From positions 248,001-312,000 of the forward strand of contig NZ_JACHEU010000003.1 in NCBI RefSeq assembly GCF_014201615.1: a stretch of DNA of 64,000 nucleotides. The letters run 5' to 3'. How positions within the stretch are numbered: position 1 is the stretch's first letter; every line of letters starts with the position of its first letter. Source of the stretch: Aquamicrobium lusatiense. Lineage in GTDB: Bacteria > Pseudomonadota > Alphaproteobacteria > Rhizobiales > Rhizobiaceae. The notes below the pieces were generated by a model. The model had not been told where the DNA came from and did not search any database. It saw only the letters and a list, made by a program, of their open reading frames with translations. Positions 1-13,725 of this stretch are shown here, in pieces. The position numbers were made by a program, and so were the translations under genes.

Positions 1-462
1 ACCGAGACGCGCCAGTTCGGCGACTATCTGCGGCAGGCGCTGGCCGCTGTGGGCATCGACGCCACGGTGGTCAACAACGATGCCGCCGCGCACCAGAAGG
101 CGGTCTACACCGACCACGATTTCGACCTCGCCGTCGCGCCCACCGTGTTCCGCGGCGATCCGGCCATATCCACCACCATTCTGGTGCGCTCCGGCACACC
201 GGCCGGCGTGCCCTTCTCCAATCAGGGCGGCTACGAGAACAAGGAGATCGACGCGCTGATCGACAAGGCCGGCGAGACGGTCGACACCGCCGCGCGCACC
301 GCGCTTTACAAGCAGCTTCAGGTGCTGGTGGCTGAAGACCTGCCGATCATCAACGTTGCCGACTGGGGCTTCATCACCGTGGCAAGCTCACAGGTGAAGA
401 ACGTGTCCAACAATCCGCGCTGGGCGGTTTCCAGCTGGGCCGACACCGAACTGGACGCGTGA
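1..462 (+). CDS. ABC transporter substrate-binding protein, peptide/nickel type (C-terminal part)
   Basis: The reading frame is open from base 1 and ends at a TGA at 460-462, so only the last 153 residues are present and the start lies outside the window. The segment has the look of the C-terminal lobe of family 5 solute-binding proteins: a run ending in NKEIDALIDKAG followed by LYKQLQVLVAEDLPIINVAD, which matches the usual region where the protein lists minimal partial fragments and closes with a short tail. It would act in the periplasm, delivering ligand to the permeases encoded next. The ligand (oligopeptide, opine, nickel chelate or other) cannot be read from this fragment. The two permeases and two ATPases downstream on the same strand support the assignment. 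Confidence 0.85.
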   Translation, partial: TETRQFGDYLRQALAAVGIDATVVNNDAAAHQKAVYTDHDFDLAVAPTVFRGDPAISTTILVRSGTPAGVPFSNQGGYENKEIDALIDKAGETVDTAARTALYKQLQVLVAEDLPIINVADWGFITVASSQVKNVSNNPRWAVSSWADTELDA

Positions 463-474
463 CAGGTCACGGCC

Positions 475-503
475 TGCCCCGCCGGACCATTTTGGGCGGG
501 GCA
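475..503 (+). other. Stem-loop between binding protein and permease genes
   Basis: TGCCCCGCC at 475-483 is exactly complementary to GGCGGGGCA at 495-503, with an 11-base loop, starting 12 bases after the stop of the binding-protein gene. No T-run follows, so it looks more like an mRNA-stabilising or partial-termination hairpin than a strong terminator. Such a structure would let the binding protein be made in excess over the permeases; this is inferred. The rest of the 300-base gap (463-762) holds a diverged C-rich intergenic repeat near 523-610, a small GTGGCA-TTCG-TGCCAC hairpin at 702-717, and no gene. Confidence 0.55.
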
Positions 504-762
504 TGGAATTTCGATGGTCGCGCATGAAGCACCCCTGCCCTTACCCCTCCACAACGGGCCGACCTCTCGCAATTCCCTCTCTCGCGGGAAGGGATCAGTG
601 GCGGAGGGATGCTGCGGGCCGCTGCCGCCGAAACCCGAACCGATCCGGGGCAGCCGGCGTTCTGACGAACGCAGCGCCGGTGCTCCAGCTTGTTTTCCGT
701 GGTGGCATTCGTGCCACGTCAGGCGATTCCGTCTGCCTGCGAAATGCTCTAGAGTCTGACGC

Positions 763-1752
763 ATGAACCGTGCGCTTCGCCTTCTCCGGCGCAGGCTGAT
801 CAGCAGCATTCCGGTGCTGCTGATCGTCATCGTCGGGGCCTTCTTCCTGCTGGAGCTTGCGCCCGGCGATGCTGCGGACGCTTATCTTCTGTCCATCGGC
901 GGCGGCGATCCGGCGCTGGTGCAGGCGCTGCGCCAGAGCTATGGCCTCGAAGGCTCCACCCTGTCGCGGCTGTGGCTCTATCTCACTTCGCTCGCCCGGT
1001 TCGATCTCGGCTGGTCCGTCACCTTCAACCGGCCGATCGCGGGGCTGATCGCGGAGCGGTTGCCCAACACGCTGTGGCTGATGGTCGGCGCGGTCGGGCT
1101 TTCCTTCACCGCCGGCTCGCTGCTCGGCATCGTTGCCGGCTCGAAACCGGGAAGCTGGCGCGACCGGCTGCTCTCCACCGGCTCGCTGGCGCTTTATGCG
1201 GTGCCGAGCTTCTGGCTCGGCCTCGTGCTGATCGTGCTGTTTTCCGTGCAACTGCGCTGGTTCCCGACCTCAGGCATCGAGACCATCGCGTCGGGCAAGC
1301 AAGGACTGGCGCGGGCGCGCGACATCGCATGGCATCTGGCCCTGCCGGTGGCAGCGCTCGGCCTGATCTATCTCGCCCTGTTTTTGCGCATGATGCGCGC
1401 CGGCATGGCAGAGGCCTGGCGGCAGGATTATGCGCTGGCAGCCCGGGCGCGGGGCATCGGCCCGGCCCGCATCGCCGTGTTCCACATTGCCCGCAACGCG
1501 CTGTTGCCGCTCGTCACCATGCTGGGCCTGCACGCCGCCTCGATGCTGGGCGGCTCCGTCGTCATCGAAAGCGTCTTCGCCATTCCCGGCTTCGGGCGGC
1601 TGGCGCAGGAGGCCGTGGCCGGGCGCGACGCGCCGCTGCTCACCGGCATCATCCTCGTCAGCGCCGTGCTGGTCATTCTGGTGAACCTCGCCGTCGACAT
1701 GGCCTATGCCTTTCTCGACCCGCGCGTCGGCGCGAACGAGGTGGTGGCATGA
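763..1752 (+). CDS. ABC transporter permease, DppB/OppB family
   Basis: A 329-residue integral membrane protein of the dipeptide/nickel-type inner membrane permease family. The N-terminus (RRRLISSIPVLLIVIVGAFF) is the first transmembrane helix, followed by the large periplasmic loop typical of DppB and five further hydrophobic segments. The EAA cytoplasmic loop that contacts the ATPase is seen at about residues 223-245 (DYALAARARGIGPARIAVFH). Length fits the family (about 310-340). The stop overlaps the next permease start by four bases (ATGA), so the two are translationally coupled. It should pair with the DppC-type subunit to form the channel. Confidence 0.92.
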   Translation: MNRALRLLRRRLISSIPVLLIVIVGAFFLLELAPGDAADAYLLSIGGGDPALVQALRQSYGLEGSTLSRLWLYLTSLARFDLGWSVTFNRPIAGLIAERLPNTLWLMVGAVGLSFTAGSLLGIVAGSKPGSWRDRLLSTGSLALYAVPSFWLGLVLIVLFSVQLRWFPTSGIETIASGKQGLARARDIAWHLALPVAALGLIYLALFLRMMRAGMAEAWRQDYALAARARGIGPARIAVFHIARNALLPLVTMLGLHAASMLGGSVVIESVFAIPGFGRLAQEAVAGRDAPLLTGIILVSAVLVILVNLAVDMAYAFLDPRVGANEVVA

Positions 1753-2579
1753 GCGCCATAAAACGCCTCTTGCGGTCTCCCGCCGGCGTGGCCGGTCTGG
1801 TGCTGCTGGCCCTGCTGGTGCTGGCCGCACTCAGCGCGCCGCTTCTTTTCCCCGGCGATCCGCTGGCGATTGCCGGCCCGCCGCTGACGCCGCCCTTCAC
1901 CGATCCGGCCTTTCCGCTCGGCACTGACCGGCTCGGCCGCAACGTGCTGGCCGGGCTGTTCCATGGCGCGCAGGCTTCGCTGGCCGTTGGGCTGGCGGCT
2001 GCCGCCGTCTCCATCATTTTCGGCGCGCTGGTCGGCACGATAGCGGGTTTTGCCGGCGGGCTGGTGGACGAGGCGCTGATGCGCGTCGTGGACGCTTTCC
2101 AGACCGTGCCGGGCTTTCTTCTGGCGCTGGCCTTCGTCAGCGTTTCGGGCGCGTCCCTGCCCGTGGTCATCCTCGCCGTCGCGCTCGGCGCATGGACCGG
2201 TCCCGCCCGGCTGGCGCGCGCCGAGGTGCTGTCGATCCGCGAGCGCGACTATGTGGCGGCGGCCCGCGTCATCGGCATGCATCCGGCCGAAATCGCGCTG
2301 CGCGAAGTGCTGCCCAACGCTTTGCCGCCGGTGCTGGCGCTGGCGGCGGTGATCGTCGGCAACGCGGTGCTGATCGAATCCGCGCTCTCCTTCCTCGGCC
2401 TCGGCGATCCCAACATCGTCACCTGGGGCTCGATGATCGCGGAGGGGCGCAACGTGCTGCGCTCCGCGCCCTTCCTGTCCATCGTGCCGGGCGTCGGCCT
2501 CGTCGTCACCGTGCTCGGCGTCTATCTGCTGGCTGAAGGGCTTTCCGATGCGCTGGCGAGCAGAAAGGCGCGGCCATGA
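1749..2579 (+). CDS. ABC transporter permease, DppC/OppC family
   Basis: A 276-residue second permease subunit. The start chosen is the ATG at 1749, inside the ATGA overlap with the upstream permease; the frame is open further upstream but that part is antisense-like noise overlapping the first permease. It opens with the N-terminal helix typical of DppC (AGVAGLVLLALLVLAALSAP), then the conserved LGTDRLGRNVLAGLFHGA segment that precedes helix 2, and an EAA loop (RERDYVAAARVIGMHPAEI) at about residues 160-180. The stop overlaps the following ATPase start by four bases. Membrane partner of the preceding permease. Confidence 0.92.
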   Translation: MSAIKRLLRSPAGVAGLVLLALLVLAALSAPLLFPGDPLAIAGPPLTPPFTDPAFPLGTDRLGRNVLAGLFHGAQASLAVGLAAAAVSIIFGALVGTIAGFAGGLVDEALMRVVDAFQTVPGFLLALAFVSVSGASLPVVILAVALGAWTGPARLARAEVLSIRERDYVAAARVIGMHPAEIALREVLPNALPPVLALAAVIVGNAVLIESALSFLGLGDPNIVTWGSMIAEGRNVLRSAPFLSIVPGVGLVVTVLGVYLLAEGLSDALASRKARP

Positions 2580-3373
2580 TGAGCGATGTGCTGGCCAGCC
2601 TGCGCGGGCTCACCGTGACCTATGGCAGCGGGGAAAGCGCGCATGTCGCACTTCACGGCCTCGACCTCGACATTCTCAAAGGCGAGCGGCTGGCCGTCAT
2701 CGGCGAAAGCGGCTCGGGCAAGTCGACGCTGGCGCTGGCGCTGGGCGGCCTGCTGCCGCCGGAAGCGCGCATTGCGGGCCACATCGGCTGGCCGGGCTTC
2801 GCCGCGCAGCCGCGCGCCGGCCGCGACATCGGCTTCGTGTTTCAGGATGCGGGCGCCAGCCTCAACCCGGTCATCCCGGTCGGCCGTCAGATCGCCGAAG
2901 TCGCACGCCTGCATCTCGGTCTCACGCGCCATGCGGCGCGGGAGCGCGCCCGCGCCTTGCTGGAGAGGGTGCGCATTCCCGACCCCGACCGCGCGCTTGG
3001 CGCCTATCCGCACCAGCTTTCCGGTGGCCAGCGCCAGCGCGTGGCGATCGCGGCGGCCATCGCGGGCGAGCCGTCGCTGCTGATCGCCGACGAGGCGACC
3101 AGCGCGCTCGACACCATCGTGCAGGCCGAAATCGTGGCGCTGCTCGACGAGCTGGTTCGTGCCGAAGGCATGACGCTGATCTTCATCACCCACGACATCG
3201 CGCTCGCCTCCGGTTTCGCCGATCGCATCGCCGTGCTGCACGATGCGCGTCTGGTGGAAGCCGGCCCCGCCCCCACCCTGCTCGGCGCACCGAAAGAGGC
3301 CTACACGGCAAAGCTGCTCGCCAGCCATATCGGGCTCGACACGCCGCCGCTGATCACGGAGAAGCAGCCATGA
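2576..3373 (+). CDS. ABC transporter ATP-binding protein, DppD/OppD type
   Basis: A 265-residue nucleotide-binding subunit. The Walker A motif GESGSGKST lies near residues 43-51, the Q-loop near GFVFQDAGASLNP, the signature LSGGQRQRVAIAAAI near residue 145, and Walker B LLIADEATSALD just after; the H-loop is THDIAL. It is shorter than many OppD proteins (about 320) and lacks most of the C-terminal oligopeptide-transporter extension. The start ATG overlaps the permease stop, and the stop overlaps the next ATPase. It energises transport together with that second ATPase at the cytoplasmic face. Confidence 0.92.
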   Translation: MMSDVLASLRGLTVTYGSGESAHVALHGLDLDILKGERLAVIGESGSGKSTLALALGGLLPPEARIAGHIGWPGFAAQPRAGRDIGFVFQDAGASLNPVIPVGRQIAEVARLHLGLTRHAARERARALLERVRIPDPDRALGAYPHQLSGGQRQRVAIAAAIAGEPSLLIADEATSALDTIVQAEIVALLDELVRAEGMTLIFITHDIALASGFADRIAVLHDARLVEAGPAPTLLGAPKEAYTAKLLASHIGLDTPPLITEKQP

Positions 3374-4206
3374 GAGCGCCGCTGCTTGCCGTTCACAACC
3401 TCACCAAGACCTACCGCTCGGGCGGGCGCGAGGTGAAGGGGCTCGACAATGTGTCGATGTCGGTGGCGGCCGGCGAAACCATCGGACTGGTAGGGCCGTC
3501 CGGCAGCGGCAAGTCCACGCTGGCGCGGGTGGTGATGCGGCTGATCGAGCCGGATTCCGGCACCATCGCCTTCGGCGACGAAAACCTCGGCGCGCTGAGC
3601 GGCAAGGCGCTGCGCTCCATGCGCAAGCGCATCCAGATGGTGTTTCAGGATCCCTCCGCCGCCTTCAACCCGCGCGCCACCGTGGCCGACGTGCTGGCCG
3701 ATCCGCTGCGCATTCACGGGCTGGCCTCGCGCGCTGAGCGCCCGCGCCGGATCGCGGAACTGCTGGACAGCGTGGGCCTGCCGGCAAATCTCGCGGCGCG
3801 GCCCGTCCATGCCGTTTCCGGCGGCCAGCGCCAGCGCGTCGCCATTGCCCGCGCGCTGGCGACCGAGCCGGAGCTGATCGTGCTCGACGAGGCGGTGTCG
3901 GCGCTCGACGTCACCGTGCGCGGCCAGATCCTCGACCTGCTGGTTGCCCTGCAGCGAGAGCGCGGCCTCGCCTATCTGTTCGTCTCGCACGATCTGGCCG
4001 TGGTGCGCGCCGTCTCGCACCGCATCGCCATCATGGATCGCGGCCGCATCGTGGAAGCCGGCCCCGCCGCCACGGTCGTCGCCGATCCCCAATCGGAAAC
4101 CGGCCGCGCGCTGGTCGCGGCCATCCCCCGCCTTCACATCCCCCGGCTTCACACCTTACAACCCCACACCTCCCAACCTCATGGGGAAGCATCCCAAAAT
4201 GCCTGA
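3370..4206 (+). CDS. ABC transporter ATP-binding protein, DppF/OppF type
   Basis: A 278-residue second nucleotide-binding subunit, started at the ATG inside the ATGA overlap with its partner. Walker A is GPSGSGKST, the Q-loop QMVFQDPSAAFNP, the signature VSGGQRQRVAIARAL and Walker B LIVLDEAVSALD; the conserved SHDLAVV carries the H-loop histidine. The C-terminus ends in a short repetitive tail rich in His, Pro and Gln with HIPRLH-like repeats (from about 4129), not typical of the family and possibly unstructured. The stop overlaps the aminotransferase start by eight bases, so the enzyme is probably co-expressed with the transporter. Confidence 0.92.
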   Translation: MRAPLLAVHNLTKTYRSGGREVKGLDNVSMSVAAGETIGLVGPSGSGKSTLARVVMRLIEPDSGTIAFGDENLGALSGKALRSMRKRIQMVFQDPSAAFNPRATVADVLADPLRIHGLASRAERPRRIAELLDSVGLPANLAARPVHAVSGGQRQRVAIARALATEPELIVLDEAVSALDVTVRGQILDLLVALQRERGLAYLFVSHDLAVVRAVSHRIAIMDRGRIVEAGPAATVVADPQSETGRALVAAIPRLHIPRLHTLQPHTSQPHGEASQNA

Positions 4207-5309: not shown

Positions 5310-8300
5310 TCAGAACTTGTAGCTCAGGCCGAAGCGCAGGTCGTGCGAGCTGTCGATCGTGACCTTGCGGTCGAGCCCGGCAGCGGAGAAGTCGGCGCTG
5401 CCATAGTCGGAGTAGCGGTATTCGGCCCTGACGATCGCCTTGTCGGTCACGGCATGCTCGATGCCGGTGCCGATGGTGAAACCGGTATGGGTCTTGGAAC
5501 CGCTGACCGGATCGCGCGGCGTGGCCAACCAGCCATTGGTGAAGGAGGCTTCGTGCTCGTATCCGGCTACAGCGACGCCCGCCGCGACGTAAGGCAGATA
5601 GCGGCCATAGGCATAGCCGATGCGGCCCCTGAGCGCTCCCGACCAGCTCTGCTTCGACTTCAGCGTCGCGTTCAGGTAGTCCGATGCGTTGGCGCGGTAG
5701 ACGCTGAACGTGTCAGGCCCGCCGGAGCTGTCGGCAATGTTGAGGTCGGCGTCGACGCCAGCCACGAAGCCGTTGCCGAAGTCGTGATTGTAGCCGGCAT
5801 AGACGCCGCCGAGGAAGCCTTCGAGGCGCTGCCTGTAGGAGCTGGTGTAGGATACGCCCGAGGCATCCAGCGCATAGTCGTTGCCGTTGCGCGACCAGTC
5901 GTGCCCGGCGCTGACGCCCGCATAGAAGCCGCTCCAGTCATAGGAAGCCGGCGCGACCATGCCGCCCTTCTGGGCCGCGATCGCCGCCATGATGCCTGCA
6001 TCCGGGTCGGCGGGCTTCGAGGACATGCCCGGAACGCCGATCTTGGTGCTGAAGCCGGCGATGAAGGTGCGGCCCTTGCCGGCAAGCTGCACGCCGTCGC
6101 CGCTCAGGGGAACGGCATAGACCTTGTTGGCCACGTTCTCGACGGAGAAGAACAGCCGGCTCGCCTCGTTGAAGTCGTAGGAGCCGTAGATGTCGAAGAG
6201 CGTGTAGGAAGGAACGTCGGTGAGGGTCGCTTCCGGAGTGGTGAAGCTGATGGTCGCGTAGGTGCCCTTGCCGACAAAGCGGGCCTTGCCGCCGAGGGCC
6301 AGCTTCTCGTCGAAGAAGCGCATGCCCACATCGACCATGCCGTAGTATTTCGGCAGGATGTCGATGTCGGCATTGCCGCCGCTGCCGACCATGCCGCCGG
6401 CGGGGGTCTTGGTCGTGGCGTTGGTGTAGGAGAAGTTGGCGTAGGCGAAGCCGGCATCGTATCCGCCCTCGATCTCGACGCCGCGCATGCGGGTGGTGCC
6501 CGGCACGTTGATCCACATCGCCGTGTCGTACCAGCATTCGGCGGCACCCGCGCAGCGCTCCATGCTGATGGTGCCGTTGGTGATGTAGTTCTTGATGCGG
6601 TTGTCGAAGTAGCCGACCTTCAGGCGCGCGGTGTCCTTTTCGAAGAACAGGTCGTTCTTGGCGATGTTGAAGCCCAGATCCCAGCCCTTGCTGGTTTCGG
6701 GCTCGAGATCCATGTTGTTGTAGATGCCGCTGCCGAGCTGGGCGCCGATGCCGACCAGACCCCAGAACGACTCCTGCGCGGTAGGCGGACGATAGGTGTG
6801 CGAATAGGTGGTGTAGAGCTGGAGCCAGTTGGTGGGGTTGGCCGCCAGCGTGAACTTCGGATTGACCTTGCCGCCATCGCGCGAAACATGCTCGGCCGGG
6901 CAGTTTTCCGGACCCACGGGACATTCGGCGGTGCCGCCGGCACCCGTGCCCTGCGTTCTTGCCTGCCGGGTGCCGGACAGGTGCCAGTGGTCGTAGCGCA
7001 GTCCGGTGATGAAATCGAACATGCCGTAGGAGAGCGTTGCGTCGGTGAAGGCGCTGGCCTTGGCGAGCTTGCCGGGCTGGTTCACGCCGCGCCGTTCCGA
7101 AACGCGGTAGTCGTCCATGTGGTAGGACACGCCATAGTCGAGCTTCAGGCCGAAGCCCTTGGTCAGGTCGAAGGTGCTGGTGTTGGTGATGTCGCCGCCG
7201 AAGGAGATGGCATCGGTTTCACGACCCGCATAGCTGCCGCCGCCGGCGCCGGGGTCGTAGAGCATGTTGGCCTTGTTGTAGTAGAGGTTGATCTTGGTGT
7301 CGAAGAGATTGCTGTCCGGCGTGAAGGCGTAGTTCAGCGAATAGGTGTTGTTCTTCACGCCCCACATATAGCCGGAATTGCGGAAGTCATTGTCGTAATA
7401 GACCCAGCCCAGCTTCAGCGCATGGGTGTCGTTCGGCTTGATCTCGATCTTGCCCAGCCCGCCGAGCGGCCGGTTGCGCTCGTAGAAGGTGGTGCCGTCG
7501 CCGTTGCGGTAGTCCTTGCTCTGGCTGTCGGCCCAGGCGCCCATGACGCTCATCTCGCCCTCGCCGCCATTGATGGCGGTGCGCATGCCGGCAGCGGTCA
7601 TGCCGCTCCAGTCATAGCCGTTCGAGCCGACTTTCCATTTGGTCATCACGCCGGCGTTGGAGCCGGGAAGCAGGATGTCGTCGATGCCGATGGAGCGGAA
7701 ATTGGCCGCGCCCGACAGCGTGCCCGAACCGGCCGCGCCGGAAACCGCACCGCGCGTGATGTCGACGCCGGCGATGAAGTCGGGCTGCAGATAGAGATAG
7801 GTGCCGCCATAGGCGCCGTGGCCGGCGCCGTTGCGGAAGGTCTGCGGCACGCCGTCGATCATGGAATTGACGCGGCCGTAGCCGCTCATGCCGCGGATGT
7901 TGACGGAAAGTCCGGGCTGGTTGCCACCGGGGCGCGAGAAGGTGCCGGGGGTGTTGCGCAGCGCCTGATTGACGTCGCCGCCATAGCGCCCCTGCAGATT
8001 GGCGGCCGTGGTGGTGCTGACCGCTGCAGGCGTGCGGAACGGCGCATCGCCCACGCCCTGCGCGGTCACGTCGATGGTGTCGAGCACCACCGAGCCCGCT
8101 GCATCGGCCGTGCCTTCGGCGGCGGGAACGGTCGAGATCGCGACCGTGTTGGCGGCGGTGAAGGAATAGCTCAGCCCCGTGCCGGACAGAAGCCGCGACA
8201 GCGCGCCTTCGCGCGTGGCGGTTCCGCTGAAGCCGGCGGTCGTCTTGCCGGCGGCCGTGGAGGCCAGGAACGTGACCTGAAGCCCAGCCTGCCTGCCATA

Positions 8301-8483
8301 GGCGGTTATGGCCTGGCTGAGCGGGCCGGCCGGAATGTTGAAGCTGATCTGCGCAGACTGCGCCGTTGCCGGCCCCGTGGTGGCGGGCAGAAGAACGGCG
8401 AAGGCCGTGGTGCCGAGCAAGGCGGCGGCAAAGGCCTTGCGGCCAACCCTGAACACAGCCCGATTGCTGAACGCGTAACCCAT
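5310..8483 (-). CDS. HasR-like TonB-dependent receptor with STN domain and fused C-terminal Omp25-like barrel
   Basis: A 1057-residue outer-membrane protein. Residues 1-42 form a signal peptide; 46-117 form a Secretin/TonB N-terminal (STN) signalling domain; DTIDVTA at 135-141 is a TonB box; a plug follows and then a large barrel to about residue 810. The plug segment GTLSGAANFRSIGIDDILLP and barrel motif SHTYRPPTAQESFW resemble hemoglobin/hemophore receptors such as HasR. After a linker, residues 846-1057 start with YDWSGFYAGVSAGHDW and end in aromatic Phe, which is the pattern of a complete 8-stranded Omp25/31 barrel. Typical relatives are 700-900 residues, so about 210 residues are extra. 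The start ATG has GGAG nine bases upstream. FecR and ECF sigma genes lie just upstream, and STN receptors signal to such pairs. Heme or a heme-protein is the likely ligand (inferred). Confidence 0.9.
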   Translation of the reverse strand: MGYAFSNRAVFRVGRKAFAAALLGTTAFAVLLPATTGPATAQSAQISFNIPAGPLSQAITAYGRQAGLQVTFLASTAAGKTTAGFSGTATREGALSRLLSGTGLSYSFTAANTVAISTVPAAEGTADAAGSVVLDTIDVTAQGVGDAPFRTPAAVSTTTAANLQGRYGGDVNQALRNTPGTFSRPGGNQPGLSVNIRGMSGYGRVNSMIDGVPQTFRNGAGHGAYGGTYLYLQPDFIAGVDITRGAVSGAAGSGTLSGAANFRSIGIDDILLPGSNAGVMTKWKVGSNGYDWSGMTAAGMRTAINGGEGEMSVMGAWADSQSKDYRNGDGTTFYERNRPLGGLGKIEIKPNDTHALKLGWVYYDNDFRNSGYMWGVKNNTYSLNYAFTPDSNLFDTKINLYYNKANMLYDPGAGGGSYAGRETDAISFGGDITNTSTFDLTKGFGLKLDYGVSYHMDDYRVSERRGVNQPGKLAKASAFTDATLSYGMFDFITGLRYDHWHLSGTRQARTQGTGAGGTAECPVGPENCPAEHVSRDGGKVNPKFTLAANPTNWLQLYTTYSHTYRPPTAQESFWGLVGIGAQLGSGIYNNMDLEPETSKGWDLGFNIAKNDLFFEKDTARLKVGYFDNRIKNYITNGTISMERCAGAAECWYDTAMWINVPGTTRMRGVEIEGGYDAGFAYANFSYTNATTKTPAGGMVGSGGNADIDILPKYYGMVDVGMRFFDEKLALGGKARFVGKGTYATISFTTPEATLTDVPSYTLFDIYGSYDFNEASRLFFSVENVANKVYAVPLSGDGVQLAGKGRTFIAGFSTKIGVPGMSSKPADPDAGIMAAIAAQKGGMVAPASYDWSGFYAGVSAGHDWSRNGNDYALDASGVSYTSSYRQRLEGFLGGVYAGYNHDFGNGFVAGVDADLNIADSSGGPDTFSVYRANASDYLNATLKSKQSWSGALRGRIGYAYGRYLPYVAAGVAVAGYEHEASFTNGWLATPRDPVSGSKTHTGFTIGTGIEHAVTDKAIVRAEYRYSDYGSADFSAAGLDRKVTIDSSHDLRFGLSYKF

Positions 8484-8647: not shown

Positions 8648-9598
8648 TCAGATCGGGGAAATCACCGTCAGCCCCGAAGAGAGGCGGCGCACGCGGGCGC
8701 CGGTCGGCTGCACCACGGCCTCCAGCGCGGCAAGCGGATCGCGCAGGTCGTAGAGACCGCTGACCCGCTGTGCGCCGATGGACGGGTGGGCGCTGACGAC
8801 GGTGCCGGGTATCCAGCGGCTGATGCGGGCGACAAGGGCGGTCACCGTTTCCCGGTCGGCGACGATCGTGCTGTCGCGCCAGCCCGCCACCTCTCCCGGC
8901 TCGCGCCTGCCTCGGGTCACCGTCGCGCTGGCGGGATCGTAGGACAGCCACTCCCCCAAGGTCAGCATCTCGTGGAGCGCCGGCGCGGTGCCGGGGGCAG
9001 CCGCTTCCACGGCCCCTTCCGCAACGGCCATGCTGACAATGTCGGCATCGCTGGAAAGCTCGAAGGCCGTGCCGAGCGCCCTTGCCTCGACGCCATCGGC
9101 CGAAGCGACGAACGGCCGGGCGCGGTCGCGCGCCACGTCGAAGAAGCACATGCCCATCAGCAGTTCGACCCGGCGCTCGGTGCGCGTCAGGGTCATGGCG
9201 AGCGCGGATTGGGGGCCGAGCGTCGCCATGCTGCCGTCGGGCAGCTCGATGCGGCGGATCTCGCCCGTGCCGGTCACATGGTCGGCCTGCGCGCGCACCA
9301 GCGCGCCGGGTATCGTCAGCGCGCCGAGGCCGGCCACGCCCGCCACGCCCAGTGCGCCGCCGATGAGGTTGCGCCGCGTGACGTTGCGCTGGCTGCGGCG
9401 CTGTTCTTCCAGAAGCTGGCCGGACGCACCATGGATGCCGCTGACACGGCTCCAGATGTCTTCGTGCCGTTCGCTGCGGGCGCGCCAGCTGCGCGCCATC
9501 TCCACCGGCACGGGATTGGCGGGGTCGTTCTGCATGCGGATGACGATATCGATGGCTTCCGAGACGAGCCGATCAAATTCGTCTGAGTTCTCGCCCAT
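8648..9598 (-). CDS. FecR-family anti-sigma factor (first pair)
   Basis: A 316-residue inner-membrane regulator. A cytoplasmic N-terminal DUF4880-type region (about 6-60) carries the conserved WRARSERHEDIWSRV; TRRNLIGGALGVAGVAGLGA at about 74-93 is the single membrane segment; a periplasmic FecR domain follows (IELPDGSMATLGPQSAL is characteristic), and the last 70 residues form the STN-like domain that contacts the receptor (VSGLYDLRDPLAALEAV). It holds the adjacent ECF sigma factor until the receptor STN domain signals ligand binding. RBS AAGG sits six bases before the ATG. It lies between the sigma gene and the receptor gene on the same strand. Confidence 0.92.
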   Translation of the reverse strand: MGENSDEFDRLVSEAIDIVIRMQNDPANPVPVEMARSWRARSERHEDIWSRVSGIHGASGQLLEEQRRSQRNVTRRNLIGGALGVAGVAGLGALTIPGALVRAQADHVTGTGEIRRIELPDGSMATLGPQSALAMTLTRTERRVELLMGMCFFDVARDRARPFVASADGVEARALGTAFELSSDADIVSMAVAEGAVEAAAPGTAPALHEMLTLGEWLSYDPASATVTRGRREPGEVAGWRDSTIVADRETVTALVARISRWIPGTVVSAHPSIGAQRVSGLYDLRDPLAALEAVVQPTGARVRRLSSGLTVISPI

Positions 9599-9740: not shown

Positions 9741-10238
9741 CTATTCCACCCGAAGCAGAAGATGCCGATAGGCGCGATGGACGAGTTCCCATGCGCGCGT
9801 GTTTGAAAGCCCCAGCCGCTCCGCCACTTCCGCAATGGTCATGCCATCGATGCGATGAAGAATGAAGGCCTCGCGCGTCTTGTCCGGCAATTCTTCGAGC
9901 GCATCGGCGATCTGCCGCAGCATCTGGCGCGAATAGACGACCATTTCCGCCGAGGGCGCGGGGTCGGCCACGCGGATCATGGCATCCTCGTCGACATAGA
10001 CGGTGGGGTCTATGGCCTGCCTGCGGTGATAGTTGATGCTGAGGTTGCGGGAGACTTCGAACAGATAGGCGCGCGGATTGTGGTTCTGCGTCGCCTCGCC
10101 CGGCGGACTGGCCATGACGCGCAGGAACGTATCCTGCGTCAGGTCGGCGGCCACGTCCTCAGCCAGCCCGCGGCGGCGCAGCGCGCGGGCTATTTCCTTC
10201 GCATGTCTGCGGAACAGTTCCTGAAAATCCCAGGCCAA
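9741..10238 (-). CDS. FecI-like ECF sigma factor (first pair)
   Basis: Extracytoplasmic-function sigma factor with region 2 (AADLTQDTFLRVM, YLFEVSRNLSINYHRR) and region 4 (LPDKTREAFILHRIDGMTIAEVAERL plus the recognition helix). The start is uncertain. The frame is open to a GTG at 10298 (185 residues), but that GTG lies inside a promoter-like element shared with the second sigma gene. A TTG at 10238, preceded by AAAAAGG at nine bases, gives 165 residues beginning MAWDFQELFRRH and leaves a 37-base leader, nearly the same as the 38 bases in the second locus. TTG is therefore preferred. It should direct transcription of the receptor gene, released by the neighbouring FecR. Confidence 0.88.
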   Translation of the reverse strand: MAWDFQELFRRHAKEIARALRRRGLAEDVAADLTQDTFLRVMASPPGEATQNHNPRAYLFEVSRNLSINYHRRQAIDPTVYVDEDAMIRVADPAPSAEMVVYSRQMLRQIADALEELPDKTREAFILHRIDGMTIAEVAERLGLSNTRAWELVHRAYRHLLLRVE

Positions 10239-10275
10239 CGCCCCGAACCTTTTTGTTTGTGCAAAACCGTTGCGC

Positions 10276-10302
10276 CTTAGCGGAAAGGTAAAAATCACGC
10301 AA
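10276..10302 (-). promoter_or_regulatory. Promoter-like element of the first ECF sigma gene
   Basis: Read on the minus strand: TTGCGTGATTTTT, seven variable bases, then CGCTAAG. The same 20 fixed bases in the same spacing occur before the second sigma gene (22048-22074). Read as a promoter this is a TTGCGT -35 hexamer, a 17-base spacer and a TAAG(G/A)-type -10. Whether housekeeping sigma or an ECF factor reads it is unknown. Confidence 0.65.
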
Positions 10303-10568: not shown

Positions 10569-11687
10569 TCAGTCGTCGTGGTGACCGCCGCTTTCTTCCT
10601 CGCTCCTGCCTCTGCGCCAGTAGGAAACGACGAGGTGGTCGGCCCGGGCGAGCCTGACCTCCTTGCGCAGATAGGTGCGGATGGCGCGGAAGGCATCGAA
10701 CTCGCAGGCGGCCCACGCATAGACTTCGCGGCCATCCCTGGGGAAGGACACGCCCTTCACCGCATCGGCAAGCTGCGTGGTGGTTCCGGCCTCCGCGCCG
10801 TTGCGGTGCAGCCAGCGGATTTCAAAGCCTTGCGGGGCGGCAAGCGCCTGCTCCTCGCCGGCATCGGCCACCTCGACGATGACATGGCCGCGTGCCTGCG
10901 GCGGCAGGGCTTCCAGCATGCGCCCGATTGCCGGCAGTCCGGTTTCGTCGCCGGCGAACAGATACCAGTCCGCCTCTTTCAGGCCGCCGCCGCCGGGGCC
11001 GATAATGCCCATGGGCTGGCCGATGGCGGCATGGCGCGCCCAGTCCGCCCCCGGCGCGGTTCCCGGTCCGCCCTCCGTGTGGGCATCGCCGTGGAGCACG
11101 AAGTCGAGATCCATGGTTCCCGCCGCCACATCCACGTTGCGCACCGTGTAGACCCGCAGGCGGGGCCGGTGCTCGCCATCCGGCCAGCGCACGATGCCGT
11201 TGGGGTCGAGCGTCGGCCATTGCGGCGTGGGCGCCTCGGGGTGCTGGACGAGGATGCGCAGGTGCAGCGCCTCAAGCGTATCGAAGCGGGAGAGATCGTC
11301 GCCGCGCAAGGTGATGCGGCGCATATGCGGGGTGACGTCGCGGACGGACGCCACCTCCATGACGCTGAAATTGGGCGGCACGGTCAGGTCGCTGCCATCG
11401 CCCGTCCAGGCGATGCGGAAAGCCTCGTCGCCCACGAACTGCATGACCTGCTCGGCAATGGTCATCTTGACCAGATAAAGCATGTCGAGGCTGGAGGCTT
11501 CGGCGCGGACCAGCAGGCGGTCGGTTTCGCTCTCGAAGCTGCTGGTCCACAATTCGGTCGAGGCATCGAGCGCATTGTCCCAGCGGGAAAGCTCCGCGCC
11601 ATAGAGCTTCAGATGGTCGCCGATCCTGCTGATGAAGGCCGGCGAATTGCCAAGTTCGATCCGGGCTTCGGTGAAATATCCGGTCAT
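10569..11687 (-). CDS. Siderophore-interacting FAD reductase with N-terminal DUF2218 domain
   Basis: A 372-residue protein with two parts. Residues 1-98 match the pattern of the DUF2218 family (start MTGYFTEARIEL, then LLVRAEASSLDMLYLVK). Residues about 105-372 form a siderophore-interacting protein: an FAD-binding barrel with RLRVYTVR (the RxYTxR flavin motif) and an NADPH-binding lobe with FAGDETGLPAIGRML, ending near VVSYWRRGRSEEE. Such enzymes release iron by reducing ferric siderophores in the cytoplasm. AAGGAG seven bases before the ATG at 11687 sets the start; an open frame upstream to 11828 is not needed. It follows a small gene and an MFS exporter on the same strand and ends at a terminator. 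DUF2218 function is unknown. Confidence 0.88.
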   Translation of the reverse strand: MTGYFTEARIELGNSPAFISRIGDHLKLYGAELSRWDNALDASTELWTSSFESETDRLLVRAEASSLDMLYLVKMTIAEQVMQFVGDEAFRIAWTGDGSDLTVPPNFSVMEVASVRDVTPHMRRITLRGDDLSRFDTLEALHLRILVQHPEAPTPQWPTLDPNGIVRWPDGEHRPRLRVYTVRNVDVAAGTMDLDFVLHGDAHTEGGPGTAPGADWARHAAIGQPMGIIGPGGGGLKEADWYLFAGDETGLPAIGRMLEALPPQARGHVIVEVADAGEEQALAAPQGFEIRWLHRNGAEAGTTTQLADAVKGVSFPRDGREVYAWAACEFDAFRAIRTYLRKEVRLARADHLVVSYWRRGRSEEESGGHHDD

Positions 11688-11766
11688 GTGAACTCTCCTT
11701 GTGTCTGCGTGCGTGAAACCGCAGGTAAGTCCCACGGTTCCTTCCGCATCGACCGCACTGTGCGGC

Positions 11767-12165
11767 TCAGGCCATCGCGCCCGCGGTGCCGGCCGTCTGG
11801 AGGCGCTGGCGGGCCTTGTCGAGCGCATCTGCCTCGCTTGTCGCCAGCACCATGGGATAGGGCGAGGCCTTGGCGCGGCCGGGCAGCGCCAGCTCCATGG
11901 CCTGCCGTTCCGCTTCGTCCTCGAAGATGAAAACGGTTGCCGCGACCAGTCGGCCGAGCTCGGCCTTGCGCGCCTTCATCCACAGCACCATCGGCTTGCC
12001 GGCGCCCGGCTGCGGCCGGTCGCCCTCGCGCACGATGACGACCATCGCGCGGCCACGCGCCAGCAGCGCATCATATTCCGCGACCCAGTCGCGGCCATCC
12101 TGCTCGGTTTCGAGGGCGCCGACGCCCAGATGGATGTCGGGTTCCAGTTCGCGGAAGAATTTCAT
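11767..12165 (-). CDS. Small conserved-type protein of unknown function in the iron block
   Basis: A 132-residue soluble protein with no signal peptide, no membrane segment and no domain recognised by eye. GAGGAG at seven bases before the ATG and the 21-base distance to the exporter stop support translation as the middle gene of a three-gene unit (exporter, this gene, flavoreductase). The sequence has an alternating hydrophobic beta strand AMVVIVREGD, a GKPMVLWMKARKAEL segment and a C-terminal helix. Position next to a siderophore-interacting protein suggests an iron or siderophore role, but nothing in the sequence itself shows this. Confidence 0.75.
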   Translation of the reverse strand: MKFFRELEPDIHLGVGALETEQDGRDWVAEYDALLARGRAMVVIVREGDRPQPGAGKPMVLWMKARKAELGRLVAATVFIFEDEAERQAMELALPGRAKASPYPMVLATSEADALDKARQRLQTAGTAGAMA

Positions 12166-12186: not shown

Positions 12187-13725
12187 TCAGGCTTCATCCA
12201 TGGCGGCAGCGGCGGGCGCCGCGCGGCGGCCACGAACGGCAATCGCCAGCGCAAGGGCTGCGATCAGGCCGCATATGCCGGCGATGGCGGTGGCGAACGA
12301 AAAGCCCTGGGCGAAGGCCGATGTCAGCAGCTCCCGGAAGGCGTCGGGCGCCATGTCGAGCCCGGCCGGCATGGCGTGGCGGCGCACGGCGCTGCCGGCA
12401 AGGGCTGCGGCGTCCGCCACGCCCGAGCCGGCCAGCGTGTCGCTCATGGAGGCGATGGCGCGGGCGCCCATCACCGTGCCCAGAAGGGCGATGCCGATGG
12501 TCATGCCGCCCTGACGCAGCGCATTCATGGTGGCCGAGGCCGTGCCGGTGCGCTCGCGTGGTGCCGCCTCCATGGCCGCCGCCCCGGTCGAGGGCACCGC
12601 CAGACCCATGCCGATGCCCAGAAGGGCAAAGAGCGGGGCGATCGCCAGATAGGAGGTGTGCGAGGTGAACAGCACCATGGCCAGCATGGATCCTCCCAGC
12701 AGCACATAGCCGAGGATCATCAGCCGCCGCAGGCCGTGCGCACGCGCCAGCCGGCCGAACAGCGAGGCGAACAAAGCCATGGCCGCAAACACCGGCGCCA
12801 TGCGCCAGCCGGCCTGCGTGGCCGACCAGCCCTGCGCCTTCTGCAGGAACAGCGAAAACAGGAACAGGCTGCTGTAGCCGGCAAATCCCAGAATGAAGGA
12901 GGCGAAATTCACCGAGGCGAAGGCGCGGTCGCGGAACAGGTCGACCGGCAGAACGGGCCTGGCAGTGCGCATCTCGGCCAGAATGAACAGCACGAGCGCA
13001 ACGACGGCGACGGCAAGTGCTGCCATCACCACCGGCGCGCCCCAGCCGGCGTTCCCGGCGCTGATCAGCGCATAGGTGAGCGCGCCCAGAAACACCACGC
13101 TCAGCAGCTGTCCGGCCGGATCGAGCGCCGCGTGATCGGGATCGGCGCTTTCCCTGATGCCGGCCATGCCCAGCACAAGCGCTGCCGCGCCGACCGGCAG
13201 GTTGATGAGGAAGATGCTCTGCCAGCCGATATTGTCGACCAGCAGCCCGCCCAGCATCGGGCCGACGATCAGGGAAATGCCGCTGAACGACGACCAGCCG
13301 CCGATAACATGGGCGCGCTCGCCCGGATCGGGGAAAGCCTGGGTAAGGATGGAAAGCGCACCGGGAATGACCAGCGCGCCCGCAATGCCCTGCAGCGCGC
13401 AGCCGGCGATCAGCACGGCGAGCGAGGGTGCGGCCGCGCAGATCGCCGAGCCGGTCACGAACAGCGCCACGCCACCGAGCCATGCGCGCTTGCGGCCATA
13501 GCGGTCGCCGATCGGACCCGCCGAAAGCATGAAGGCCGACAGGCACAGCGCGTAGGAGCCCACCACCCATTGCAGGCCGGCTAGATCGGTGGACAGCCCT
13601 GCCTGTATGGCGGGCAGCGCCACGGTCACGATGCTGATGGCGAGCGTGGCCATGAAAGTGCCGAGATAGACGGCGGCGACCGCCATTCCTTTGCGGGATC
13701 CGGGGCTTTTTGGCGAGTTGGGCAT
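12187..13725 (-). CDS. MFS drug/siderophore exporter, DHA2 (EmrB/QacA) family, 14 TM
   Basis: A 512-residue major facilitator with 14 predicted hydrophobic segments. Motif A is GPIGDRYGRKRAWLGG (about residues 70-85) and the antiporter motif C appears as GGWSSFSGISLIVGPMLGG in helix 5. Length and helix count place it in DHA2, proton-driven multidrug exporters. Being first in a unit with a flavoreductase, and opposite a TetR gene with an operator over its promoter, it could export siderophore or a toxic compound; substrate not determinable. No clear ribosome site precedes the ATG at 13725; an internal ATG at residue 14 is directly preceded by AAAGGA and is less likely. Confidence 0.9.
   Translation of the reverse strand: MPNSPKSPGSRKGMAVAAVYLGTFMATLAISIVTVALPAIQAGLSTDLAGLQWVVGSYALCLSAFMLSAGPIGDRYGRKRAWLGGVALFVTGSAICAAAPSLAVLIAGCALQGIAGALVIPGALSILTQAFPDPGERAHVIGGWSSFSGISLIVGPMLGGLLVDNIGWQSIFLINLPVGAAALVLGMAGIRESADPDHAALDPAGQLLSVVFLGALTYALISAGNAGWGAPVVMAALAVAVVALVLFILAEMRTARPVLPVDLFRDRAFASVNFASFILGFAGYSSLFLFSLFLQKAQGWSATQAGWRMAPVFAAMALFASLFGRLARAHGLRRLMILGYVLLGGSMLAMVLFTSHTSYLAIAPLFALLGIGMGLAVPSTGAAAMEAAPRERTGTASATMNALRQGGMTIGIALLGTVMGARAIASMSDTLAGSGVADAAALAGSAVRRHAMPAGLDMAPDAFRELLTSAFAQGFSFATAIAGICGLIAALALAIAVRGRRAAPAAAAMDEA

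Follow-up and report, generated by a model that had tools for sequence, protein, structure and literature searches.

A TonB-dependent transducer with a second, Omp25/31-type barrel at its C-terminus in Aquamicrobium lusatiense

What does a TonB-dependent receptor gain from a second complete barrel on the same chain? The question is raised by P0001, a protein of 1057 amino acids (aa) encoded in the 64,000 nucleotides of Aquamicrobium lusatiense analysed here (assembly GCF_014201615.1, contig NZ_JACHEU010000003.1, positions 248,001 to 312,000; in the following "the window"). Its gene (5310..8483, minus strand, as are all its parts given below) is an open reading frame (ORF) without internal stop, identified by Pfam and NCBIfam matches as a TonB-dependent transducer with a second C-terminal barrel. 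It is near certain that P0001 is a HasR-like transducer followed, after a short linker, by a complete eight-stranded barrel of the Omp25/31 type. An initial annotation of the window had claimed that no stop lies between the receptor and the extra part, and the ORF of 1057 codons bears this out. Fusions of this kind are rare but evolved more than once in related bacteria, so that it can be tested what the added barrel does for an iron- or heme-uptake receptor of a soil bacterium.

The chain begins with a putative signal peptide (residues 1-42, 8358..8483; assigned by eye), followed by the STN signalling domain (residues 44-118, 8130..8354; Pfam match PF07660 to residues 70-117, E=3e-7, 30.5 bits at a cut-off of 28.4), a putative TonB box at around residues 131-139 (8067..8093; by eye and from the HasR alignment) and the plug domain (residues 150-259, 7707..8036; Pfam). 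For the mature protein a mass of about 108 kDa is computed. The Pfam domain TonB_dep_Rec_b-barrel extends over residues 348-784, and the heme/hemoglobin receptor model TIGR01785 (TonB-hemin, NCBIfam) matches residues 134-811 (6051..8084) with positions 1-673 of its 677 and 366.9 bits (cut-off 316.85). Since this model is covered nearly in full by residue 811 and scores above its cut-off, the receptor is complete before the extra part begins; the end of its own barrel is situated at around residue 817. A linker of around 30 aa (residues 818-847, 5943..6032; delimited by alignment and AlphaFold2) passes into the second barrel (residues 848-1057, 5313..5942; Pfam, AlphaFold2 and Foldseek), which starts with YDWSGFYAGVSAGHDW at residue 848 and ends with the chain terminus GLSYKF at 1057. 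Here, OMP_b-brl (PF13505) matches residues 842-1057 with profile positions 11-175 of 175 (E=1.2e-14, 55.4 bits, cut-off 28.7); the family name Omp25/31 rests on this profile and on the motifs at beginning and end, not on named members. The STN domain, plug and full receptor barrel claimed initially are thus confirmed by Pfam and TIGR01785, and the extra complete barrel with its start and end motifs by PF13505 and AlphaFold2.

AlphaFold2 models were obtained for the whole chain (13 alignment rows) and for residues 818-1057 alone (8 rows). In the whole-chain model the receptor part is poor, with a mean predicted local distance difference test (pLDDT) of 45, and the STN domain mostly reaches 59-79. 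Residues 851-1057 show values of 54-86 per ten-residue block, with at least 70 in 16 of 21 blocks. Both models place eight strands within residues 852-1056; the part modelled alone reaches a pLDDT of 79.2 and a predicted template modelling (TM) score of 0.71, one of its eight strands being interrupted by a single residue. For the linker, a short low-confidence helix is predicted in both models (residues 830-840 in that of the whole chain). Structure prediction, proposed initially as a check, accordingly presents the C-terminal region as a separate eight-stranded unit. In a Foldseek comparison of the whole model with the PDB, HasR ranks first, with a TM-score of only 0.22, which is low because the receptor barrel is poorly modelled. 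The top matches of the second barrel include Ail, OmpA, NspA, OprG, OmpX and OmpW (around 196-239 columns, query-normalised TM 0.31-0.50), with larger barrels (FadL, OmpT) mixed among them; a PDB sequence search with the second barrel alone gave a single match (E 0.25) and nothing useful.

The survey for the same architecture, also suggested in the initial annotation, found it at other loci of the same genome, in Hyphomicrobium and on plasmids of five other alphaproteobacterial genera. Three further fused receptors of the own genome, on contigs C4, C8 and C9, match the window protein into the extra barrel, and of the nine OMP_b-brl domains of this genome (E<=1e-5) four are located on fused receptors and the other five are standalone. 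The 2.9 Mb contig C1 carries no fused gene; contig C3, to which the window belongs, encodes repC and is therefore probably a RepABC replicon. Hyphomicrobium sp. D-2 possesses a full-length fused copy (51% identity in the best segment), and a 90% identical copy, cut by the contig end, exists in a separate assembly, a Mesorhizobium metagenome-assembled genome (L030). The plasmids belong to Pseudochrobactrum, Ancylobacter (two loci), Ketogulonicigenium, Novosphingobium and Shinella. Apart from Methylocystis, Pfam detected PF13505 in all but one of 10 fused relatives; in the exception, Hyphomicrobium, it falls short of E 0.01 and OmpA_membrane remains sub-threshold, the region still aligning with the window barrel.

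Concerning the frequency of the fusion, a junction model built from nine fused junctions (A5) matched three genomes at E<=1e-40 among 387 from the order, one of the three being the own genome, and none of the eight same-genus genomes included. Among 318 genomes of the class (E<=1e-30), a match across the junction was found in the own genome only, three others matching only the last strands of the receptor. As only the best 5-6 candidates per genome were scored, these counts are lower bounds; the model fits the group B kind (see below) best. In an earlier search with the first five junctions (A2; 297 genomes of the order), at least the own genome and one other (G190) contained fused frames; a further match (G035) turned out to belong to another receptor subfamily with an extra barrel. 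Scans of viral contigs with alignment A1, the window barrel and the Hyphomicrobium barrel found no relatives. With alignment A2 ten were obtained, none of them listed with a receptor part except for one match that starts at query residue 59.

The history of the fusion was followed in two trees. The receptor tree was built from the receptor part of 43 rows (12 fused, 31 unfused) chosen among 111 receptor-like frames; frames truncated at the end of a locus, duplicates of a locus and many remote rows were not used. The barrel tree contains the 12 fused barrels, 42 of 48 standalone rows and three Methylocystis domains (left out: the copies or near-copies L028, L029, L112, L114 and L115, and the weak L118). 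Three further fused genes are not counted among the 12, two of them being incomplete, at the end of the contig (L030) or of the locus (L176), and one a near-copy of L101 (L177); nor are L107 and L164, as members of other receptor subfamilies. The unfused rows end at or beside the column of their own last strand, with a terminal F in 30 of 31, which agrees with the initial statement that TonB receptors normally stop there.

On the receptor tree the label fused or unfused needs nine changes, at least eight of them forced by starred branches. A single clade is rejected by the approximately unbiased (AU) test for all fused rows (p 7e-77), for eight rows here called group B (p 6e-67) and, on the barrel tree, for the 12 fused barrels (p 0.009), the tested groups having been named after inspection of trees or alignments, about which this test warns. 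A single origin of the fusion, considered as a candidate, is rejected by these tests on both trees. The eight group B barrels form one clade (98/100); those of the window, Hyphomicrobium and the own C4 paralog form another (99/90), which adjoins standalone barrels from three same-genus genomes (93/73). As neither the fused receptors nor their extra barrels form one clade, barrels were captured at least twice, and since the group B barrels do so and their carriers do not, the module has also disappeared from receptors or passed from one to another; gain and loss are not told apart by the trees. Pseudochrobactrum sp. XF203 carries a tandem of one unfused and one fused receptor, each with sigma and FecR genes. 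The last strands of an Ensifer adhaerens receptor are 80% identical to those of the own C8 paralog, and its chain stops there.

The second barrel is under purifying selection in both pairs compared, weaker than that on the receptor. Between the window gene and the Mesorhizobium copy, the ratio of nonsynonymous to synonymous divergence (dN/dS) amounts to 0.157 in the second barrel (dS 0.73), compared with 0.097 in receptor residues 403-817 (dS 0.25); in a Pseudochrobactrum pair it is 0.145 for the second barrel and 0.049 for the receptor.

Upstream of the gene lie those for a FecR-type anti-sigma factor (8648..9598, minus strand; PF04773, E=2e-17) and a FecI-type extracytoplasmic function (ECF) sigma factor (9741..10298, minus strand; Sigma70_r2 and Sigma70_r4_2). 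An ECF sigma and a FecR-type gene are found directly upstream of all 12 complete STN-type fused receptors, by Pfam at eight loci and by record annotation at four; in Ketogulonicigenium the second upstream gene is annotated only as DUF4880, a domain above its Pfam cut-off in 7 of 8 FecRs. The STN columns are likewise occupied in 12 of 12 fused alignment rows. The query itself has an STN domain, so that this association is not unbiased. P0001 thereby resembles transducers of the FecA/FecIR type, in which the gene of an STN receptor likewise directly follows those of an ECF sigma factor and FecR and whose surface-signalling scheme is taken here from PMC9249621; it differs from them by its second barrel, the accessible part of that paper mentioning none.

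These findings are read here, with a probability of roughly 0.55, as pointing to an accessory barrel at the cell surface, tethered to a TonB transducer that acts in surface signalling, after repeated captures that were kept under purifying selection. An even number of strands places both ends of a barrel in the periplasm, where the end of the first and the start of the next are thus both situated. Following this rule, the linker would run on the periplasmic side and each barrel would close on its own, the eight-stranded one lying beside the receptor in the outer membrane with its loops near the mouth of the receptor. Covalent fusion would fix a 1:1 ratio and place the barrel under the surface-signalling control of the receptor itself. 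As to its most likely role, the second barrel might gather or position an iron or heme ligand, or a carrier of it, for the receptor, a suggestion made tentatively and at slightly less than even odds. A wider proposal, by which the repeated independent fusions would reflect a general partnership, Omp25/31-type barrels capturing ligands for TonB transducers as proteins of their own in most cases and as part of the same chain here, is considered improbable; if true, the fused set, including the Methylocystis receptor with three extra barrels, would show in naturally fixed form a complex of the outer membrane that has yet to be observed.

Concerning the substrate, the best solved relative of P0001 by sequence is HasR of Serratia marcescens (3csl, E=7e-79), whose signalling domain (2m5j) also matches the STN region (E=8e-9). 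The two proteins share STN, plug and barrel as well as adjoining sigma and anti-sigma genes, whereas the match stops at the end of HasR's own barrel and the second barrel exists in P0001 only. H189 and H603 of HasR, which we take to be its heme ligands, fare differently: H189 aligns to H222 in the plug domain of P0001, whereas H603, situated between the FRAP and NPNL motifs, aligns to Q582, such that this histidine is absent. The initial description as HasR-like therefore holds for the closest solved relative and the kept H222, not for the second ligand. In the clade of the window protein (10 rows), all 7 unfused receptors and one of the 3 fused ones have the FRAP/NPNL histidine; that of the plug occurs in 6 of the 7 and in all 3, respectively. 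Most heme receptors possess the FRAP/NPNL histidine, according to the available part of PMC3792355, and some, e.g., PhuR, are without some of the elements.

Two further observations speak for the favoured reading, a tethered accessory barrel: the own C4 paralog (L025) combines both HasR heme ligands with a fused barrel, and heme-binding relatives of Omp25/31 (Bartonella Hbps, Brucella Omp31b) are described in the portion of PMC12279742 at hand, which gives an indirect reason to think of ligand capture. Omp25, Omp31 and the Hbps resemble the C-terminal 210 residues of P0001 at the level of the profile PF13505 and of the eight strands; unlike the fused barrel, they are separate proteins with a signal peptide of their own. 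A HasA hemophore found no match in the own genome in a search whose control gave no signal either.

Several results weigh against this reading. Among the 12 fused receptors, 9 are without either heme-ligand histidine and those of the window and of Hyphomicrobium possess one of the two, so that a heme role is not general; heme as the general substrate of fused receptors is weakened by this check. Histidine is not clearly more frequent in the fused barrels (permutation p 0.058). Unfused relatives occur beside fused ones, from which it follows that such receptors do not need the barrel as such. The Methylocystis receptor adjoins a two-component pair and no sigma/FecR genes, so that the link to signalling is not universal either. 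Finally, the main barrel is poorly predicted in the full model, so that a contact between the two barrels is at most putative.

Another explanation would be a shield or decoy, the added barrel covering the outer face of the receptor or offering a variable surface against the phages and bacteriocins that commonly exploit receptors. It would suit the course of third-position divergence between the window gene and the Mesorhizobium copy, which is 0.153 up to residue 814, where the receptor's own barrel ends, and 0.381 from there on (0 of 2000 permutations), with lower values again in blocks past residue 1002, as if a surface module had been exchanged separately; the flank downstream of the Mesorhizobium copy matches no part of the window. 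It would also suit the group B barrels, with their long insertion before the last strand and two Cys residues 7-8 positions apart within it in 5 of 9 A5 rows (L026, L027, L101, L103, L104), which perhaps close a surface hairpin by a disulfide. However, the best breakpoint in the Pseudochrobactrum pair is at residue 166 and not at the junction, and the unfused neighbour has a breakpoint too. A separate exchange of the module at this point is clear for the pair of the window gene and L030 and is not generalised here. Furthermore, dN/dS values well below 1 give no sign of diversifying selection, and a shield is regarded as unlikely, if still to be reckoned with.

The second barrel might also be a nearly neutral passenger, abundant eight-stranded barrels becoming fused by chance and being tolerated because each part folds alone. 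The rarity of the fusion in the order would be expected then, as would the presence of the same kind of module on a TpsB-like transporter, an OprB porin and another TonB receptor there. Less easily accommodated are two independent pairs with a dN/dS of 0.15, a genome whose four fused copies hold four of its nine OMP_b-brl domains, and the sigma and FecR-type genes at 12 of 12 loci; this explanation is rather doubtful. Still less probable is an anchor or assembly aid, by which the second barrel would fix the receptor in the membrane, drive oligomers or give the β-barrel assembly machinery (BAM) a strong last-strand signal. The own last strand of the window receptor ends with FIAGFSTKI, without the terminal F of the unfused rows, and the chain as a whole ends with the GLSYKF of the second barrel, but this F is kept at the same place in the fused L026, L027, L102, L103 and L104, and no interface is predicted. 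That the C-terminal part belongs to one enlarged receptor barrel, for which nothing was found, is refuted at the level of prediction by the completeness of TIGR01785 by residue 811, by unfused rows ending at or next to the same column and by the eight strands that residues 852-1056 form alone, contrary to the initially feared placement of residues 846-1057 within a main 22-strand barrel. An assembly or frame error joining two genes, raised alongside it, has nothing in its favour and is likewise refuted, since the same junction recurs at three own-genome loci, in independent assemblies such as that of L030 and on complete plasmids of other genera.

With regard to known proteins, outer-membrane proteins with several barrels were reportedly described as a class by Solan et al. 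in 2021, whose abstract is said to state that combinations with eight-stranded barrels prevail. The introduction of PMC11494523, as far as accessible, calls them a new class (2021), and PMC8592465, in its accessible parts, also deals with such proteins; GfcD has two larger barrels around a periplasmic domain. P0001 shares with these proteins more than one complete barrel per chain (both of its profiles are complete; the second barrel is modelled well, the first not), whereas its combination is that of a TonB transducer and an eight-stranded barrel. The second barrel, termed unusual at first, is consequently not new in kind, such proteins having been known since 2021. Particular to the present case are the TonB transducer as carrier, the repeated capture and the natural pairs of fused and unfused receptors. 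A literature search, largely without full texts, found no description of a fusion between a TonB transducer and an eight-stranded barrel, and the accessible part of the OMPdb paper contains nothing on fusions. Related receptors with and without the second barrel, once in tandem on one plasmid, make its cost and gain directly testable, as well as the manner in which BAM deals with a chain of two barrels; the repeated fusions also suggest a functional connection between two outer-membrane families, both abundant, that tend to be investigated separately.

Among the remaining neighbours of the gene are a siderophore-interacting protein of the flavin reductase type (10569..11828, minus strand; PF04954, E=4e-39, and PF08021, E=3e-30), a DHA2-family exporter of the major facilitator superfamily (12187..13725, minus strand; TIGR00711 above cut-off) and genes of a peptide/nickel-type ATP-binding cassette (ABC) transporter (1..4206, plus strand; gene calls and profile matches), whose binding protein begins upstream of the window. 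They fit heme as well as other iron chelates and leave the choice open. The C8 paralog (L026, 1847-4793) is followed by ABC genes of the iron/siderophore type; as the best NCBIfam models, below cut-off, are the siderophore type EitABC and an F420-0 type, heme genes were rejected here.

Other combinations of barrels were also met with. On plasmid p1 of Methylocystis bryophila (NZ_CP019949.1), L107 (3787-8670) encodes a siderophore-type TonB receptor of 1627 aa with three OMP_b-brl domains behind it, which apparently makes four barrels in a single chain. Within the order, one C-terminal OMP_b-brl occurs on a TonB receptor from a different subfamily in which Pfam finds no STN (L164, 996-4235), and a frame of 1187 aa joins POTRA_2, ShlB and two OMP_b-brl, i.e., a TpsB-like transporter and two extra barrels (L165, 3172-6732). 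A frame of 720 aa consists of three tandem OMP_b-brl domains (L166, 1368-3527), and in L167 (1012-3087) OMP_b-brl is situated ahead of an OprB carbohydrate porin in one frame.

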